Of a stretch of DNA of 64,000 bases, positions 17,217-60,378 are shown in pieces. The translations under genes and the position numbers were made by a program. Source of the DNA: an uncultured Clostridia bacterium (GTDB taxonomy: Bacteria; Bacillota; Clostridia; Christensenellales; Borkfalkiaceae); contig CAMUBY010000002.1 of the NCBI GenBank assembly GCA_947087265.1, forward strand, positions 124,001 through 188,000, written 5' to 3'. A model generated the notes under the pieces. That model saw only the letters and a list, made by a program, of their open reading frames with translations. It was not told the DNA's origin and ran no database searches. Each line of letters opens with the position of its first letter. Within the stretch, counting starts at the first letter, position 1.

Positions 17217-17490
17217 AAAAAAACTGTGAGGGCTTTTTTTGTTGCCGATTGCCGAAGCGTTAACACGGCAGGTGACTCCGACAAAGCTACCTTATGGCAC
17301 ACGCACCTGTCTGTTTAGTGCTGCTGTATCCCTACCCTGACACGGTTCGCAGGGGTGCGTTGCATAAGACCTTGTTATCAACATCCCTTGCCGTATGCTG
17401 CCTTCCACGATCGGCACCGAGAAAAGCGTTCGGTTCTGCTATAGCGGATTGCAGATACAGGGCACCGCTAACTCCCCACCTATCACAGCC
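17217..17490 (-). ncRNA. ffs: Signal recognition particle RNA, large bacterial type with Alu domain
   Basis: The minus strand reads as a large SRP RNA of about 270 nt, like the Bacillus subtilis scRNA. Near the 5' end it has GGGGAGTTAGCGGTGCC followed by CTGTATCTGCAATCCGCT, the Alu-domain region. Domain IV, read from 17340 to 17321, has CAGG, a GTA/TAC stem, a GGGA tetraloop and AGCAG. This is the Ffh-binding hairpin with a GNRA-type GGGA in place of the common GGAA. The terminal helix pairs CTGTGA near 17487 with TCACAG near 17224 and is followed by seven T, a terminator. Short plus-strand open frames here are shadows. Confidence 0.93.
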
Positions 17491-22747: not shown

Positions 22748-23554
22748 TTAAGCGTTTTCTGCCAGAGTATAAATTAAATTCATGGTAACGCCTTGATTGG
22801 TAATGCTTAAAGTTAGTTGATTGTTCGATAAAGTAGCGTTTTGCGCCTCGCCGTTTACGGTCATCACTAGCGCCGCTGAGTTCTGCGTATAGGTACCCGT
22901 TGCCGTGTTTCCCATAACGCTCATCGTAAAGCCGCCGTTCGAATCGAATGCGACGGTTGAATCTGCGTACCCTGCTTTTAACGCTGCAAGCGAGTTGTTT
23001 AATTCGTCTTTCACTTCTTGGTTAACCGAACTGTTAAACGAAACCGACAAATCGGAAAAGTTGAACGTTTTTCCTGCAACGGTAATCACACTTGCATCGC
23101 CCTCGTCTTCGTTTTCGTTATCTCCGCCGCTGATTTCGCCGACGCTCGATTTATCTAATCGATAAGTAAGTTTGAAAGAAAGTCCTTCTTCGGAACCGCT
23201 CATCGTGATAGAATTGCCCGAAACTTTGAAATTCTGGTCTTCGCCGTACAGGGTCGCCGTTACGGTTGCGCCGCTTTGCGTATAGGTGCCGTTTACCGCG
23301 GTACCCATCATGACCATCTTAAATTCACCGTTTTGCCCGAATTCGAGATAACCGTCTTCATACATTTCGTTCAGCATTTCCTCTGCCAATTCTTTTTCTG
23401 CGCCGGTTGCGCCTTGGGTGATTTCAGCTTTTTCGAAATTGTACTTCTTTCCTGCTACGGAGTCTGCATTTCCGTCGCCGCAAGCGGCAAGCCCGAGTAC
23501 GCAGGCAACGCAAGCAATGAGTGCGATAAGTGTGGTGACAAATCTTTTTTTCAT
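22748..23554 (-). CDS. Lipoprotein with two tandem repeat domains
   Basis: 268 residues. The signal MKKRFVTTLIALIACVACVLG ends in lipobox LAAC, so it is an outer-surface lipoprotein. Two related domains follow, starting VAGKKYNFEKAEI and VAGKTFNFSDLSV; each has a GTYTQ stretch before a short beta-rich end. A linker rich in Asp, Glu and Gly separates them. The neighbour at 23846 has the same architecture, so they are paralogues. The start at 23554 is fixed by AAGGAGAATC. The transcript leader carries the structured RNA at 23577-23735. Function unknown. Confidence 0.85.
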   Translation of the reverse strand: MKKRFVTTLIALIACVACVLGLAACGDGNADSVAGKKYNFEKAEITQGATGAEKELAEEMLNEMYEDGYLEFGQNGEFKMVMMGTAVNGTYTQSGATVTATLYGEDQNFKVSGNSITMSGSEEGLSFKLTYRLDKSSVGEISGGDNENEDEGDASVITVAGKTFNFSDLSVSFNSSVNQEVKDELNNSLAALKAGYADSTVAFDSNGGFTMSVMGNTATGTYTQNSAALVMTVNGEAQNATLSNNQLTLSITNQGVTMNLIYTLAENA

Positions 23555-23576
23555 GTTTTGATTCTCCTTGTAAAAT

Positions 23577-23735
23577 AAAAAAAGTGTGTTTCCAAACCGA
23601 AAACACACTGCACTGCATCTCCGATTTGTCACCACACAAATGATACCGATAAGACACAACACAAAGGTATAAAGAGATACACAATGCCTAATGATTGTGA
23701 CCCCTCGTGTCGTGTTTTATTCACTTGTGTGGTGT
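23577..23735 (-). ncRNA. Structured leader RNA, copy 1 (two stems, pseudoknot, terminator)
   Basis: Read on the minus strand from about 23735. P1 pairs 23725-23734 with 23630-23639 (CACCACACAA/TTGTGTGGTG). P2 pairs 23707-23715 with 23654-23662 (one G-T). In the loop, GTATCTC (23680-23674) and GCAT (23687-23684) can pair with GAGATGC and GTGC at 23621-23615 and 23613-23610, just 3' of P1, as a pseudoknot. A terminator follows (stem GTGTGTTT/AAACACAC, T-run to 23577), 22 bases before the lipoprotein start. Same plan as the copies at 43547 and 60231. Confidence 0.75.
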
Positions 23736-23741
23736 ACTTGC

Positions 23742-23770
23742 AGTATAGCATAAAATTTTCAGAATTACAA
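23742..23770 (-). promoter_or_regulatory. Sigma-A promoter of leader RNA copy 1
   Basis: Minus strand TTGTAA (23770-23765), 17 bp, TATACT (23747-23742). The expected transcription start coincides with the 5' end of stem P1. Confidence 0.75.
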
Positions 23771-23845: not shown

Positions 23846-24628
23846 TCAGTAATTTCGTAACTTGTATATATAGGTATATATAGAATCGGAAAGGCCAGTT
23901 TTCTCGTAGCGGATTGTATCCTCGACAACAGTAATCTTGATAAGATTGTTGGAACTGTCGGTCAGTTCGAGACTTGTGTTGTTTTGGATATAAGTACCCG
24001 TTTGGGTGGAGCCGCTGTACGAATAATATTGCTTGTAGCCGCCGTTGTTGTCGAATGCAAAATATGATCCTACGTAATCATACTGAATCAATATAAGTTG
24101 TCGTTTCATTTCTTCTGCCGTTTCTTTATTCACAGAATCGGCAATCTCTAATTTAACGTCTGAAAAAACGAATTTCTTTCCTGCAACCTTCATTCCGGTG
24201 CTTCCGATTTCGCCTGTGTTTTCGCTCACGAACCGATAGGTTAGTTTCGTCACTTTGTTGTAATTGTCGGTTAAATACCACGAAACGGTATCGCCTTTCA
24301 CCTTAAAATCAAACTCGAAGGGGATGTTGTCAAGGTCTATCTGAACGCTTTTGCCTTTCTGTTTGTAAATGCCGATATAAGATTGACTGTCGATACCCAT
24401 TTCGCAGTAGTTGCCGTTGCCGAACGCGATGTAACTTCCTTTACAACTTTCGTTCAAGGCGGAATCAGGAACATAGCCGATGGCGCCTTCGCTTTTTACG
24501 AGTGCCTTTTCAAAAACGTATTTCTTACCCGCAACGGGTTCGGCGCTGTTTCCGCAGGCAACCAGCCCGATAACGCACGCCGCGCAAGCAATCAACGCAA
24601 CGAGTATTTTTACGATTTTCTTTTTCAT
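23846..24628 (-). CDS. Lipoprotein paralogous to the 22748 gene product
   Basis: 260 residues. Signal MKKKIVKILVALIACAACVIG with lipobox LVAC. As in its neighbour, two domains begin with a shared motif: VAGKKYVFEKALV and VAGKKFVFSDVKL, the second followed by EIADSVNKETAEEMKRQL, which parallels NSSVNQEVKDELNNSL in the neighbour. Both have GTYIQN or GTYTQN near the end. AAGGAG precedes the ATG. Its promoter is framed by an 8-bp inverted repeat. Unlike its paralogue it has no structured leader RNA. Function unknown. Confidence 0.83.
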   Translation of the reverse strand: MKKKIVKILVALIACAACVIGLVACGNSAEPVAGKKYVFEKALVKSEGAIGYVPDSALNESCKGSYIAFGNGNYCEMGIDSQSYIGIYKQKGKSVQIDLDNIPFEFDFKVKGDTVSWYLTDNYNKVTKLTYRFVSENTGEIGSTGMKVAGKKFVFSDVKLEIADSVNKETAEEMKRQLILIQYDYVGSYFAFDNNGGYKQYYSYSGSTQTGTYIQNNTSLELTDSSNNLIKITVVEDTIRYEKTGLSDSIYTYIYKLRNY

Positions 24629-43546: not shown

Positions 43547-43690
43547 TGCTACACAATTTTATAATCGACACGAGGCGTATAATGCGAAATTTGTACCGCC
43601 TTTCTTACCTCGTGTCGAGAAATTGTGTAGCAACAATCAGGCGGTTGCATTTTCGGGGTGTGCCTCTTGATTGGGGCACACTTTTTTTTA
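43547..43690 (+). ncRNA. Structured leader RNA, copy 3 (two stems, pseudoknot, terminator)
   Basis: P1 pairs 43547-43559 with 43620-43632 (13 perfect pairs, TGCTACACAATTT). P2 pairs 43565-43575 with 43608-43618 (11 perfect pairs, TCGACACGAGG). In the P2 loop, AATGC (43581-43585) and ACCGCCT (43595-43601) pair with AGGCGGT (43639-43645) and GCATT (43647-43651) just after P1, making a two-part pseudoknot. A terminator follows (GTGTGCC/GGCACAC, eight T), 18 bases before the small membrane protein gene. Same plan as the copies at 23577 and 60231. Confidence 0.8.
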
Positions 43691-43707: not shown

Positions 43708-43929
43708 ATGTTTCAAAAAAACAAGAATTTATTATTTGCCGCACAGTGCATTATGTATACAATTCTTGTCCTCATCGCTTGTGGCGCAGCTGTTTCCGGA
43801 GTAATATGCATGGCGTATGTTAGCATTAAGCTCGGCATTATTACTATAATAATGGGATTGGTAGTTTTTGCCGTTTTGTTTAGTTTTTGGTTTTGTTTAG
43901 TTTTTGGTTTTGTTTATTTGAGTTTCTGA
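43708..43929 (+). CDS. Small two-helix membrane protein, C-terminus frameshifted by a tandem repeat
   Basis: As it stands this codes for 73 residues with two membrane helices (LLFAAQCIMYTILVLIACG and LGIITIIMGLVVFAVLFSFW). Inside the second helix a perfect 17-bp tandem duplication shifts the frame and leads to an early stop. Removing one copy restores an open frame of 109 residues whose hydrophilic tail ends KTEKPIDIYNKD with a stop at 44052. AAGGAGG precedes the ATG, and the transcript leader is RNA copy 3. No family recognised. Confidence 0.75.
   Translation: MFQKNKNLLFAAQCIMYTILVLIACGAAVSGVICMAYVSIKLGIITIIMGLVVFAVLFSFWFCLVFGFVYLSF
43874..43916 (+). repeat. 17-bp tandem repeat, two full copies and a partial third
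   Basis: TTTTGTTTAGTTTTTGG at 43874-43890 and again, identical, at 43891-43907, followed by TTTTGTTTA. 17 is not a multiple of 3, so copy number decides the reading frame. Confidence 0.95.
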
Positions 43930-57247: not shown

Positions 57248-60184
57248 TTACTCTTTCGGCAAATCCCCGTCCGTACAGTGAACGGTGTAGTCAGGTGTAT
57301 TAAAATTCCAATGATAACCTTTTTTAATCGCGTTCCATTCCGCTTTCGTTCCTTTGAAGTGAATATCGGTAAGTTTCTCGCAACCACTGAACGCAGAATA
57401 TTCGATACTTTTTACGCCGTTTCCGATTGTAACGTTTGTAAGGGATTTACAATCATAGAACGCATACTGTCCGATACTTGTTACGCCGTCGGGAATTACA
57501 AGTTCACCCGATAATTCTTTGCCGTTGATATATAACGTTCGGCTACTTGACATTAAATAATCAAGTCCCGATATTCCGCACCAACTTGCAATATCGCCCG
57601 TATGGGTAATGCTTGTAAGGGAATCGCAATCATAGAACGCATCCTTTCCGATACTTGTAACACTATTCGGAATGGTAACGCTTGTAAGTTTACTGCAACC
57701 CAAGAACGCATACTGTCCGATACTTGTTACGCTGTTTCCAATTGTAACGCTTGTAAGAGATTGGCAATAATAGAACGCATAACTTCCGATACTAGTTACC
57801 CCATTTCCGATTGTAACGCTTGTAAGTTTACTGTAACCCCTGAACGCGTCCTTTCCGATAGTTGTTATGCTGTCAGGAATGGTAATTGCGCCGCTAAGTT
57901 TCGCAGGGATATATAAAAATTCCGTTTTATTTTTATTGTATAAAATTCCGTCTTGGCTTGCGTAGTTTGAGTTGTTTTCAGAAACCTTAATGCTTGCAAG
58001 GGAACTGCAATTCTCGAACGCAGAATCTCCGATACTTGTAACGCTGTTGGGAATGGAAATGCTTGTAAGAGATTTGCAATACTTGAACGCACTATCTCCG
58101 ATACTTGTAACGCTGTCGGGAATTGTAACGCTTGTAATTTTACTGCAATCCTCGAACGCAGAATATCCGATACTTGTTACGCTGTTGGGAATGGTAACGC
58201 TTGTAATTTTATTGCAACCATAGAACGCGCAATTTCCAATACTTGTTACGCCGTCGGGAATTACAAGTTCACCCGATAATTCATTGCCGTTGATATTTAA
58301 CGTTCGACTACTTGACATTAAATTGTTAAGTCCCGATATTCCGCACCAACTTGCAATATCGCCCGTATAATAAATGCTTGTAAGTTTACTGCAACCACTG
58401 AACGCATACTTTCCGATACTTGTAACGCTGTCGGGTATGGTAACGCTTGTAAGTTTACTGCAACCATTGAACGCAGAATTTCCGATATTTGTTACGCCGT
58501 CGGGAATGGTAATTGCGCCGCTGATTGCTTTTGGAATAAGAAGAAATTCTGTTTTGTCTTTATTGTATAAAATTCCATCTTGGCTTGCGTAGTTTGAGTT
58601 GTTTTCAGAAACCGTAATGCATGTTAGGTTACTGCAACCACTGAACGCGTCCTCTCCGATACTTGTAACGCCGTTTCCGATTGTAACGCTTGTAAGGGAA
58701 CTGCACCACATAAACGCAGAATTTCCGATATTTGTAACGCTGTTTCCGATTGTAACGCTTGTAAGGGAACTGCAACCTTCAAACGCAGAATTTCCGATAC
58801 TTGTTACATTGTTCGGAATTGTAATTTTCGTAATGTCGCAACCATAGAACGCAGAAGCTCCGATACTCGTTACGCTGTTGGGGATAATAATACTTTTCAG
58901 GGAAGAGCAATCCTTAAATGCAGAATCTGCAATCGTTAAAGTACCTTCCTTTATCATGTAGTCTTCGGGAAGGGTGTTTTTTGCCCGAATTAAATGCTTG
59001 CCGCTGTATAATACGCCGTCTTTCCAATTGCTTTCGTTTTTGTAGTATGGGGTACGGGATAGCGCGTTTTCTCCGACTCCTGTAATTCCGTCTCCGAGGA
59101 ATACCGTCTGAATTAAATTTTCATATTCTTTGGGAATTCCGTTGAATTTTCCGTTTCCCGAAACTTTGAGGGAGAAGGTTACGCCCTCATAGATATAGCC
59201 ATTGTATTCCCCGTCGGAAAGGGCGGTCAGCATTCCCAAAAAGCCGTTGCCAAAGTCTACCGTGAGTTTTGCTCCCGCTTTAATTTCTTTCCCGACCGTA
59301 GCAGACGTTTCGTAACTTCCGTATTTATCTTGCCAAATCACTTTACATTCATTTCTTACGCTTGAAGTATCGCCCTCCACCTCAGCGGTAGCGTAGCCTT
59401 TTTGGTAACTGCCGTCTTTGTATTTTATTTGATAGGCGATTTCCGCTTCGGTTGCGTACATGGGAACTATAATTTCTTCACCGTCCGCACTTTTTACGCT
59501 CGAAACTTTCTTTTCGGTATTCTCGGCGGAGCGGATGCGTTTCGCGTCGAACCAAACGTGGGTAACAAGCCCGTTTTCGTCGAACTTCACTTGAATATAT
59601 TTATGCTTTTGCGTTTCCAACTTCATGCCGTCCTCTAAAATCTGTTCGAGGTTGTTCATCATATCTTCCTCGCTCTCATTCAGGTGCATGAGTTTCAAGT
59701 AACTGTCGTTATAATATTCCCAAGTGCGCTCGTCTGAAAGGTCGGGCTTGCCGAGTACTTTTTGCACCGCCGCCTTGTCGTCGCCCAAATCGATTGCGGA
59801 AACTTTCCCCGAACGGAAAATGTTGGTTAAGTAGGGAATGACGGTGGAAAGAATAATCACCAATGCCAGAGCCAGCGCGGCAACTACGCTTATCACAATT
59901 TTGTGCCGTTTCAAAAAAGGCAGGAATTTCCCTTTCATACAGGGCACGAATTTGCCCTTGTACCAACTCACAATCGGGTTGGGCTTTTTCTCTTTCTGCG
60001 CCTGCGCTTCTTTGCTGTTCGGCACGGTGTAAAGGTCGGCGCCGCAGTTTCCGCAGAATTTTTTGCCCTCCGCAACTTCCGCGCCGCACCAGGGGCAGCG
60101 GTGTACGCCGCTTTCGGCAGGCGTTCCGCATTCGGGGCAGAAGTTGCTTTCAAATTCTGCGCCGCATTTTGTGCATTTGTTCAT
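57248..60184 (-). CDS. Zinc-ribbon, membrane-anchored BspA-type leucine-rich repeat protein
   Basis: 978 residues. Two zinc ribbons at the N-terminus (CTKCGAEFESNFCPECG; CPWCGAEVAEGKKFCGNCG) precede one membrane helix (about 95-119, VISVVAALALALVIILSTVI), an SmpA/PepSY-like region, and a long run of LRR_5 repeats of about 23 residues (pattern IPNSVTSIGASAFYGCSSLT). The ribbons should be cytoplasmic and the repeats outside, where BspA-type repeats often bind host or matrix proteins. Insert blocks starting VSENNSNYASQDGILYN and GDIASWCGISGL each occur twice. Start at 60184 with AAAGGAGAAG. The leader is RNA copy 2. Confidence 0.88.
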   Translation of the reverse strand: MNKCTKCGAEFESNFCPECGTPAESGVHRCPWCGAEVAEGKKFCGNCGADLYTVPNSKEAQAQKEKKPNPIVSWYKGKFVPCMKGKFLPFLKRHKIVISVVAALALALVIILSTVIPYLTNIFRSGKVSAIDLGDDKAAVQKVLGKPDLSDERTWEYYNDSYLKLMHLNESEEDMMNNLEQILEDGMKLETQKHKYIQVKFDENGLVTHVWFDAKRIRSAENTEKKVSSVKSADGEEIIVPMYATEAEIAYQIKYKDGSYQKGYATAEVEGDTSSVRNECKVIWQDKYGSYETSATVGKEIKAGAKLTVDFGNGFLGMLTALSDGEYNGYIYEGVTFSLKVSGNGKFNGIPKEYENLIQTVFLGDGITGVGENALSRTPYYKNESNWKDGVLYSGKHLIRAKNTLPEDYMIKEGTLTIADSAFKDCSSLKSIIIPNSVTSIGASAFYGCDITKITIPNNVTSIGNSAFEGCSSLTSVTIGNSVTNIGNSAFMWCSSLTSVTIGNGVTSIGEDAFSGCSNLTCITVSENNSNYASQDGILYNKDKTEFLLIPKAISGAITIPDGVTNIGNSAFNGCSKLTSVTIPDSVTSIGKYAFSGCSKLTSIYYTGDIASWCGISGLNNLMSSSRTLNINGNELSGELVIPDGVTSIGNCAFYGCNKITSVTIPNSVTSIGYSAFEDCSKITSVTIPDSVTSIGDSAFKYCKSLTSISIPNSVTSIGDSAFENCSSLASIKVSENNSNYASQDGILYNKNKTEFLYIPAKLSGAITIPDSITTIGKDAFRGYSKLTSVTIGNGVTSIGSYAFYYCQSLTSVTIGNSVTSIGQYAFLGCSKLTSVTIPNSVTSIGKDAFYDCDSLTSITHTGDIASWCGISGLDYLMSSSRTLYINGKELSGELVIPDGVTSIGQYAFYDCKSLTNVTIGNGVKSIEYSAFSGCEKLTDIHFKGTKAEWNAIKKGYHWNFNTPDYTVHCTDGDLPKE
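57350..58960 (-). repeat. Tandem 69-bp-scale leucine-rich repeat units with higher-order duplication
   Basis: About twenty units encoding the repeating TSIG-x-x-AF-x-x-C pattern. Two longer segments recur nearly identically: the one around 57950-57985 again at 58570-58606, and the one around 57500-57580 again at 58260-58370. This shows duplication of multi-repeat blocks. Confidence 0.85.
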
Positions 60185-60230: not shown

Positions 60231-60378
60231 AAAAAAGGCGCGCCCTCAACCGAAGACGCGCCCTGCATTCCGTATCTCCGAGTTGTTACCACGCAACTAA
60301 ATTTAACCCCACAGGATAATAGAGATACAAACAATGCCATTTTGTACCTGAGGAGTAAAATTTATTCAGTTGCGTGGT
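60231..60378 (-). ncRNA. Structured leader RNA, copy 2 (two stems, pseudoknot, terminator)
   Basis: Read on the minus strand. P1 pairs 60368-60378 with 60288-60298 (11 perfect pairs, ACCACGCAACT). P2 pairs 60347-60360 with 60302-60315 (two mismatches). In the loop, GCATT (60337-60333) and GTATCTC (60328-60322) pair perfectly with GAGATAC (60278-60272) and AATGC (60269-60265), just 3' of P1, forming a pseudoknot. A GC-rich terminator follows (GGCGCG/CGCGCC, six T ending at 60231), 46 bases before the BspA-like start codon. Copy 1 shares GAATAAA after P1 and the GTATCTC element. Confidence 0.8.

Follow-up and report, generated by a model that had tools for sequence, protein, structure and literature searches.

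The minus strand of positions 23735-23577 of the window (the whole 64,000-nt stretch of DNA analysed, from an uncultured Clostridia bacterium) holds a leader with three helices (P1, P2 and P3), a pseudoknot, an intrinsic terminator and a ribosome-binding site ahead of a lipoprotein gene. The question raised by this locus is whether the leader controls the gene, and by which pairings. Our analysis indicates that the element is quite probably a cis-acting transcription-termination switch of the riboswitch type, belonging to a class that is widespread in Clostridia.

Layout of the leader and its gene

From 23770 to 23554 on the minus strand, the features follow one another in the order -35 box, 17 nt, -10 box, P1, P2, P3, GTATCTC, terminator hairpin followed by seven T, AAGGAG and ATG. 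The features of this element, called copy 1, are the following, with the basis of the assignment in brackets:

23765-23770, minus strand: -35 box TTGTAA, 17 nt upstream of the -10 box (read in the sequence)
23742-23747, minus strand: -10 box TATACT, ending 8 nt ahead of the element start in copy 1
23721-23734, minus strand: P1 5' strand, CACCACACAAGTGA, near the predicted RNA 5' end (fold and covariation)
23702-23715, minus strand: P2 5' strand (fold; test of pairing within versus between elements)
23680-23699, minus strand: P3 hairpin, CACAAT..ATTGTG with a GGC loop (fold and covariation)
23684-23687, minus strand: candidate PK2 5' strand GCAT (weak alone; the counterpart elsewhere has 8-10 bp)
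23674-23680, minus strand: PK1 5' strand GTATCTC (sequence, covariation and the other-family set)
23654-23667, minus strand: P2 3' strand (same basis as the P2 5' strand)
23630-23643, minus strand: P1 3' strand, TCATTTGTGTGGTG (fold and covariation)
23615-23621, minus strand: PK1 3' strand GAGATGC, downstream of P1 (sequence, covariation and the other-family set)
23614-23628, minus strand: antiterminator 5' strand, CAAATCGGAGATGCA, made up of the linker and the PK1 3' strand (minimum-energy fold of the whole leader)
23610-23613, minus strand: candidate PK2 3' strand GTGC (read in the sequence; relatives in other families)
23593-23607, minus strand: antiterminator 3' strand, TGTGTTTTCGGTTTG, which shares bases with the 5' arm and loop of the terminator (same basis as the antiterminator 5' strand)
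23584-23608, minus strand: intrinsic terminator hairpin, GTGTGTTTTCGGTTTGGAAACACAC, -11.2 kcal/mol
23577-23583, minus strand: terminator T-run, 7 T (read in the sequence)
23564-23569, minus strand: ribosome-binding site AAGGAG (read in the sequence)
23530-23544, minus strand: ORF codons 4-9, GATTTGTCACCACAC, the exact complement of leader positions 23637-23623 (15 nt, duplex -26.7 kcal/mol)
22748-23554, minus strand: downstream gene for a 268-aa, lipocalin-like lipoprotein (PF16270, E 1.6e-6)

In P1, CACCACACAA (23734-23725) pairs perfectly with TTGTGTGGTG (23639-23630), and the helix extends to 14 bp; P2 (23715-23702 with 23667-23654) also has 14 bp in the predicted fold. PK1 joins GTATCTC (23680-23674) to GAGATGC (23621-23615) with one G-T pair, and GCAT (23687-23684) is able to pair with GTGC (23613-23610), although this second pairing is weak in the genus itself. 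These P1, P2 and pseudoknot pairings, as well as P1 of copy 2, had been put forward in the original prediction and were found to be correct base for base on the minus strand. The predicted fold of the 126-nt element includes P1, P2 and P3 and reaches -43.7 kcal/mol (z -4.24), with none of 200 shuffles as low.

The adjacent gene (23846-24628) is a paralogue of the lipoprotein gene of copy 1 (38% identity, E 4e-42), and no element was found ahead of it in searches with the two covariance models R1 and R2 described below. The layout claimed from the sequence, with an element before one lipoprotein gene and none before its adjacent paralogue, was thus reproduced, and the view that only one of the pair is under control is true of the DNA layout, functional control itself being putative.

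Covariation and extent of the class

An exact pattern derived from copies 1, 2 and 4, GGCATTGT..TATCTC..GGAGAT, has three matches in the genome of origin and matches 17 of the 103 genomes of the genus, while the reversed-pattern control gave 0 matches in both cases. Model R1, built from 26 elements, matches 78/103 genus genomes, with up to 10 copies per genome, and 32 of the 396 genomes sampled in the order. Model R2, trained on 104 elements that come nearly all from one genus, matches 44/391 genomes sampled in the class Clostridia, which represent 29 of the 222 sampled genera. A pattern scan of named genomes yielded 97 stretches, mostly from Clostridia MAGs and including Candidatus Borkfalkia, Gallimonas and Coproplasma. 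Three pattern matches (loci L229, L242 and L271) were discarded as chance: there is no P1 at L229 and L242, and no R2 match above 17 bits at any of the three. Two patterns gave zero matches in viral contigs when a phage origin was considered. Two elements each are present at loci L106, L109 and L149.

R2 finds four copies in the genome of origin; copy 4 lies on another contig, and the other two are in the window:

60265-60378, minus strand: copy 2, preceding a zinc-ribbon and LRR_5 gene (57251-60184)
43548-43655, plus strand: copy 3, divergent, preceding a 73-aa membrane ORF (43708-43926)

Copy 1 scores as a class member (R1, 101.5 bits; R2, 84.9 bits), but these scores arise by construction, as it was in both training sets; its independent support comes from the antiterminator and P2 shuffle tests. 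In copy 2, P1 is formed by the perfect pairing of ACCACGCAACT (60378-60368) with AGTTGCGTGGT (60298-60288). Copy 3, which was in neither training set, is recognised by R1 (20.8 bits, E 0.015 in the window) and by R2 (31 bits, E 0.006 over the genome of origin). We found P1, PK1 (ACCGCC/GGCGGT) and an antiterminator in it, and P2 was read in the sequence, so that it can be counted as a member of the class.

Of the 152 elements collected, 3 identical ones were left out before counting, and 2 of the remaining 149 had no parsed P1 (L098 and L114). Another 2 of the 147 had too little downstream sequence and were left out of the antiterminator test. The other-family set was obtained from alignment A7 (72 rows) by removing the elements already used, a second match at L321 and identical elements, leaving 53. 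The automatic choice of PK1 was wrong in some elements, copy 1 included, and the statements made here on PK1 rest on other analyses, except for copy 3.

In alignment A3 (101 distinct rows), two-sided changes were seen at 7/7 outer pairs of P1, with 99.7% of cells paired, and at two pairs of P3, with 92.2% of cells paired; the model to which A3 was fitted already includes P1 and three of these P3 pairs, and the counts for both helices therefore lean towards structure. When the partner strand was slid by 1-3 columns, pairing fell to 29-61% for P1 with PK1. P2 is absent from the search model. Among 147 elements its own-strand complementarity was 20.6, compared to 11.6 (sd 0.20) for shuffled partners, a value reached in 0/5000 shuffles. 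The strands of P2 are complementary inside elements and not across them, in agreement with the prediction that P2 of copy 1 has no sequence match to copy 2, and 130 distinct P2 strands were counted among the 147 elements. A GC-rich 10-mer, CGACACGAGG, is common to copy 1 (23712-23703, minus strand) and copy 3 (43566-43575, plus strand), which is unusual and may be due to chance or local conversion. It does form part of the P2 5' strand in both copies, as had been claimed, but it did not hold as a feature of the class and was ruled out as a motif, P2 strands differing almost everywhere.

PK1 is nearly constant in the genus, with two-sided changes at only 2/8 pairs, but it does vary in copy 3, as the strands given above show. 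In the 53 other-family elements, its own score was 20.85 against 16.44 (sd 0.61) for shuffled partners (0/10000 shuffles). In other families PK1 is continuous with a long counterpart of PK2, for example AAAAATGCAT/ATGCATTTTT, and these long counterparts support, by analogy, the weak GCAT/GTGC pairing of copy 1. Several unpaired segments are also conserved, namely AUA after P1 (185/200), GGYA (160/200) and CAA after P1 (153/200). A conserved structured domain with covariation, as is characteristic of riboswitches, was therefore found in P1, P2, P3 and PK1, and the proposal that compensating changes unite copy 1 with the other members of a structured leader class now has support far beyond the three copies on which it was based. 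The original prediction had missed where the promoter lies, the switch between terminator and antiterminator, copy 4 and how large the class is.

At least five of six bases match TATACT just ahead of P1 in 136/148 elements, compared to 23/148 in a control window, and this -10 box ends exactly 6 nt before the element start in 125/148. The fixed distance suggests that P1 begins at, or next to, the predicted transcription start. With a downstream ORF found for 132 of 149 elements, the elements occupy the place expected of a riboswitch, that is, the 5' leader on the same strand as the gene and after a promoter. The simple rule used finds no ORF in 17/149 elements, nor in 7/53 of the other-family set.

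Most of the downstream genes encode lipoproteins, BspA-type LRR proteins or zinc-ribbon proteins. A simple rule assigns a lipobox and a hydrophobic start to 78 ORFs and an N-terminal zinc ribbon to 18; LRR_5 (BspA type) matches 35/66 and 33/66 downstream proteins, many of these being truncated where the locus ends. In other families, secreted proteins are likewise frequent, and short cytoplasmic-looking proteins are found too. In the genome of origin, 2/8 LRR_5 places follow an element, so the switch would mark a subset of them. A short conserved protein (motif like VTAEDVMASLKPLFDEY) repeatedly follows the element at loci L094, L095, L106, L109, L143 and L149. At locus L007 (1458-2426), two element-plus-lipoprotein units lie in tandem, about 850 bases apart, which suggests that the element was duplicated with its gene.

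Terminator and antiterminator pairings

The linker after P1, together with the PK1 3' strand, is also complementary to the 5' arm and loop of the terminator. In copy 1 this antiterminator pairs the two strands listed above; further examples are CAATCGGAGATAC with GTGTCTTCGGTTG, CAAAGGAG with CTCCTTTG, CAATATGGGAT with GTTCCATATTG, and CAATTAGGAGA with TCTCTTAATTG. When each of 59 distinct linkers was represented by one element, the own antiterminator score was 18.75, against 13.66 (sd 0.40) for shuffled partners (0/20000 shuffles), and the 53 other-family elements gave 18.26 against 13.08 (sd 0.61; 0/10000 shuffles). Because the terminator arm lies outside both the pattern and the model, this complementarity was not built in by the search. 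Some of the own antiterminator helices are short, at 5-6 bp (L016, L014 and L128, for example).

The minimum-energy fold of the copy 1 leader is the antiterminator fold (-60.7 kcal/mol), while forcing the terminator gives -57.9 kcal/mol without the pseudoknot. The cost is thus 2.8 kcal/mol with the pseudoknot uncounted, and the pseudoknot duplex is worth -7.4 kcal/mol, which places the two states of copy 1 in close balance. Since the same bases serve the pseudoknot and the antiterminator, the state with pseudoknot and terminator (off) and the state with antiterminator (on) exclude one another, which is the logic of a riboswitch; two mutually exclusive folds were found here at the level of sequence and energy.

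Two other lines were abandoned. An antiterminator between the P1 5' strand and the terminator arm, both rich in C-A/G-U, was considered first; it failed outside the first subgroup and was replaced by the pairing of the linker and PK1 3' strand. T-runs alone, taken as evidence of a terminator, were non-discriminating, as the aptamer itself holds T-runs.

Proposed mechanism and alternative readings

The helices, the two exclusive pairings, the promoter position and the gene context are all shown by the sequence and its covariation, and they suggest the following mechanism. Transcription would start at or near the first base of P1, and P1, P2 and P3 would fold. UAUCUC after P3 would then pair with GAGAU(A/G)C downstream of P1, closing the pseudoknot; this would leave the 5' arm of the terminator free, so that the terminator could form and transcription would stop before the gene (off). 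If the pseudoknot is open, the terminator 5' arm and loop would instead be paired with the linker and the PK1 3' strand, and transcription would continue (on). A small molecule or ion would most likely stabilise the pseudoknotted fold, making the element an off-switch. We infer that such a switch works in the cell and responds to a small ligand, and the direction assigned to it follows from strand logic. P1-P3 of copy 1 are very stable when ligand-free (the -43.7 kcal/mol given above), so that the pseudoknot might also close by default and a trigger could open it. Since lipoproteins, BspA-type LRR proteins and zinc-ribbon proteins are the main products of the genes, the signal would determine what the cell surface is composed of.

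No common pathway of the downstream genes points to a ligand, and this speaks against a riboswitch. In the main rival reading, which we consider rather unlikely, an RNA-binding protein or a processive antitermination factor reads P3 or the pseudoknot and selects between terminator and antiterminator. The same covariation would be expected for such a protein-dependent attenuator, and the missing metabolic theme and the up to 10 copies per genome would suit a global regulator, but a compact pseudoknot with conserved unpaired segments, spread over 29/222 sampled genera, is more aptamer-like.

A further reading, improbable in our judgement, regards the terminated short leader as a small RNA that acts in trans by pairing with the starts of mRNAs. 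It draws on the 15 leader bases of copy 1 that are the complement of codons 4-9 of its ORF. L027 and both copies in L007 have the same 15 nt. L160 belongs to a different genus of the family; there the pairing spans 13 nt and shows a matched change, with A in the leader and T in the ORF in place of the G and C of copy 1. Moreover, complementarity of at least 7 bp to the region of the P1 3' strand and linker is present at nt 1-30 in 23/130 ORFs, compared to 1 to 6/130 in five later windows. As a class-wide rule, however, pairing with the ORF start was rejected: when own leaders were compared with others, the mean fractile was 0.518 over 130 elements, which makes it a feature of a subgroup. Signal-peptide codon use could explain the weaker matches, and an exclusive antiterminator would make no sense for a plain small RNA.

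Within the termination-switch reading, the leader-ORF pairing is possibly a second layer of control in a subgroup. We tentatively entertain, as a doubtful extension, that the element represents a new and widespread class of riboswitch by which uncultured gut Clostridia would regulate their set of surface proteins, with this second layer in some members, copy 1 included. In these, signal-peptide codons would pair with the P1 3' strand and linker after read-through, which would either couple translation to the switch or allow the terminated leader to act in trans on such mRNAs. The complementarity raises a second control layer that is testable.

It is quite improbable that a known riboswitch class, for instance one of the c-di-GMP classes controlling surface proteins in Clostridia, includes the element as a highly divergent member. 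Riboswitches I and II for c-di-GMP (the GEMM families of Rfam) can precede surface-protein genes in Firmicutes, and the surface-protein context is shared here, as is the architecture of pseudoknot and terminator. Against this, none of the 4227 families of Rfam 15 matches an element at the gathering score in the window and 36 further element-bearing loci. At relaxed thresholds, copy 1 gave chance-level matches only, the best at E 0.6, and L299 had no match up to E 1. The covariance models of c-di-GMP riboswitches I and II and of the T-box likewise matched no element in the window and the 36 loci, nor copy 1 in the relaxed search. GGDEF is absent from the genome of origin and present in only 21/103 genus genomes, compared to 78/103 for the element, and c-di-GMP was set aside as an unlikely ligand, GGDEF being missing from the own genome. 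The c-di-AMP synthase DAC is present in 103/103 genus genomes and is therefore non-discriminating; c-di-AMP stays among the conceivable ligands. T-box leaders oppose a terminator and an antiterminator in a leader; the present element differs from them in having no Rfam T-box match, and no aminoacyl-tRNA or amino-acid gene context was seen. Finally, copying of a promoter-leader-signal-peptide cassette as a unit, with a non-switching terminator as its RNA structure, could explain why different mature proteins have a common leader and a similar signal-peptide start (KRFVTT, MKHK), but it is highly improbable, as compensating changes such as those of P1, P2, PK1 and the antiterminator can arise only through selection for pairing of the RNA.

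A termination switch of the riboswitch type has close parallels. Like the fluoride (crcB) and ZTP (pfl) riboswitches, the element is a 5' leader with a conserved pseudoknotted fold, part of which competes with an intrinsic terminator; it differs in its context, which is that of surface proteins and not of ion or purine/folate genes, and in matching no Rfam model. Passages of PMC2864571 expect the crcB and pfl folds to prevent the terminator, whereas by strand logic the folded state here would favour it (off). Covariation of a whole expression platform is used as evidence for such classes in PMC13273304. Candidate terminator leaders in gut and other bacteria are likewise reported in three screens (PMC11109978, PMC8632094 and PMC8040213), the passages compared from which mention no lipoprotein, LRR or surface-protein genes; their supplementary alignments may hold an unnamed entry. 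We regard the element as a new class inside the known kind of riboswitch-like terminator leaders, its novelty being judged against the literature searched and Rfam. The family is large, occurs in gut bacteria of the class Clostridia and is absent from Rfam 15. R2, although trained on elements nearly all from one genus, still reaches such a range of genera. The putative ligand would be a signal by which gut bacteria change their surface, and the explicit switch strands make ligand screening and read-through assays directly designable.

In the window and the 36 loci, Rfam matched at the gathering score only SRP RNA, tRNA and tmRNA, all away from the elements. The window holds a bacterial large signal recognition particle RNA at 17224-17488 on the minus strand (RF01854, 166 bits), and the tmRNA gene at locus L292 (45-421) is separated by about 1.1 kb from a class-level element.
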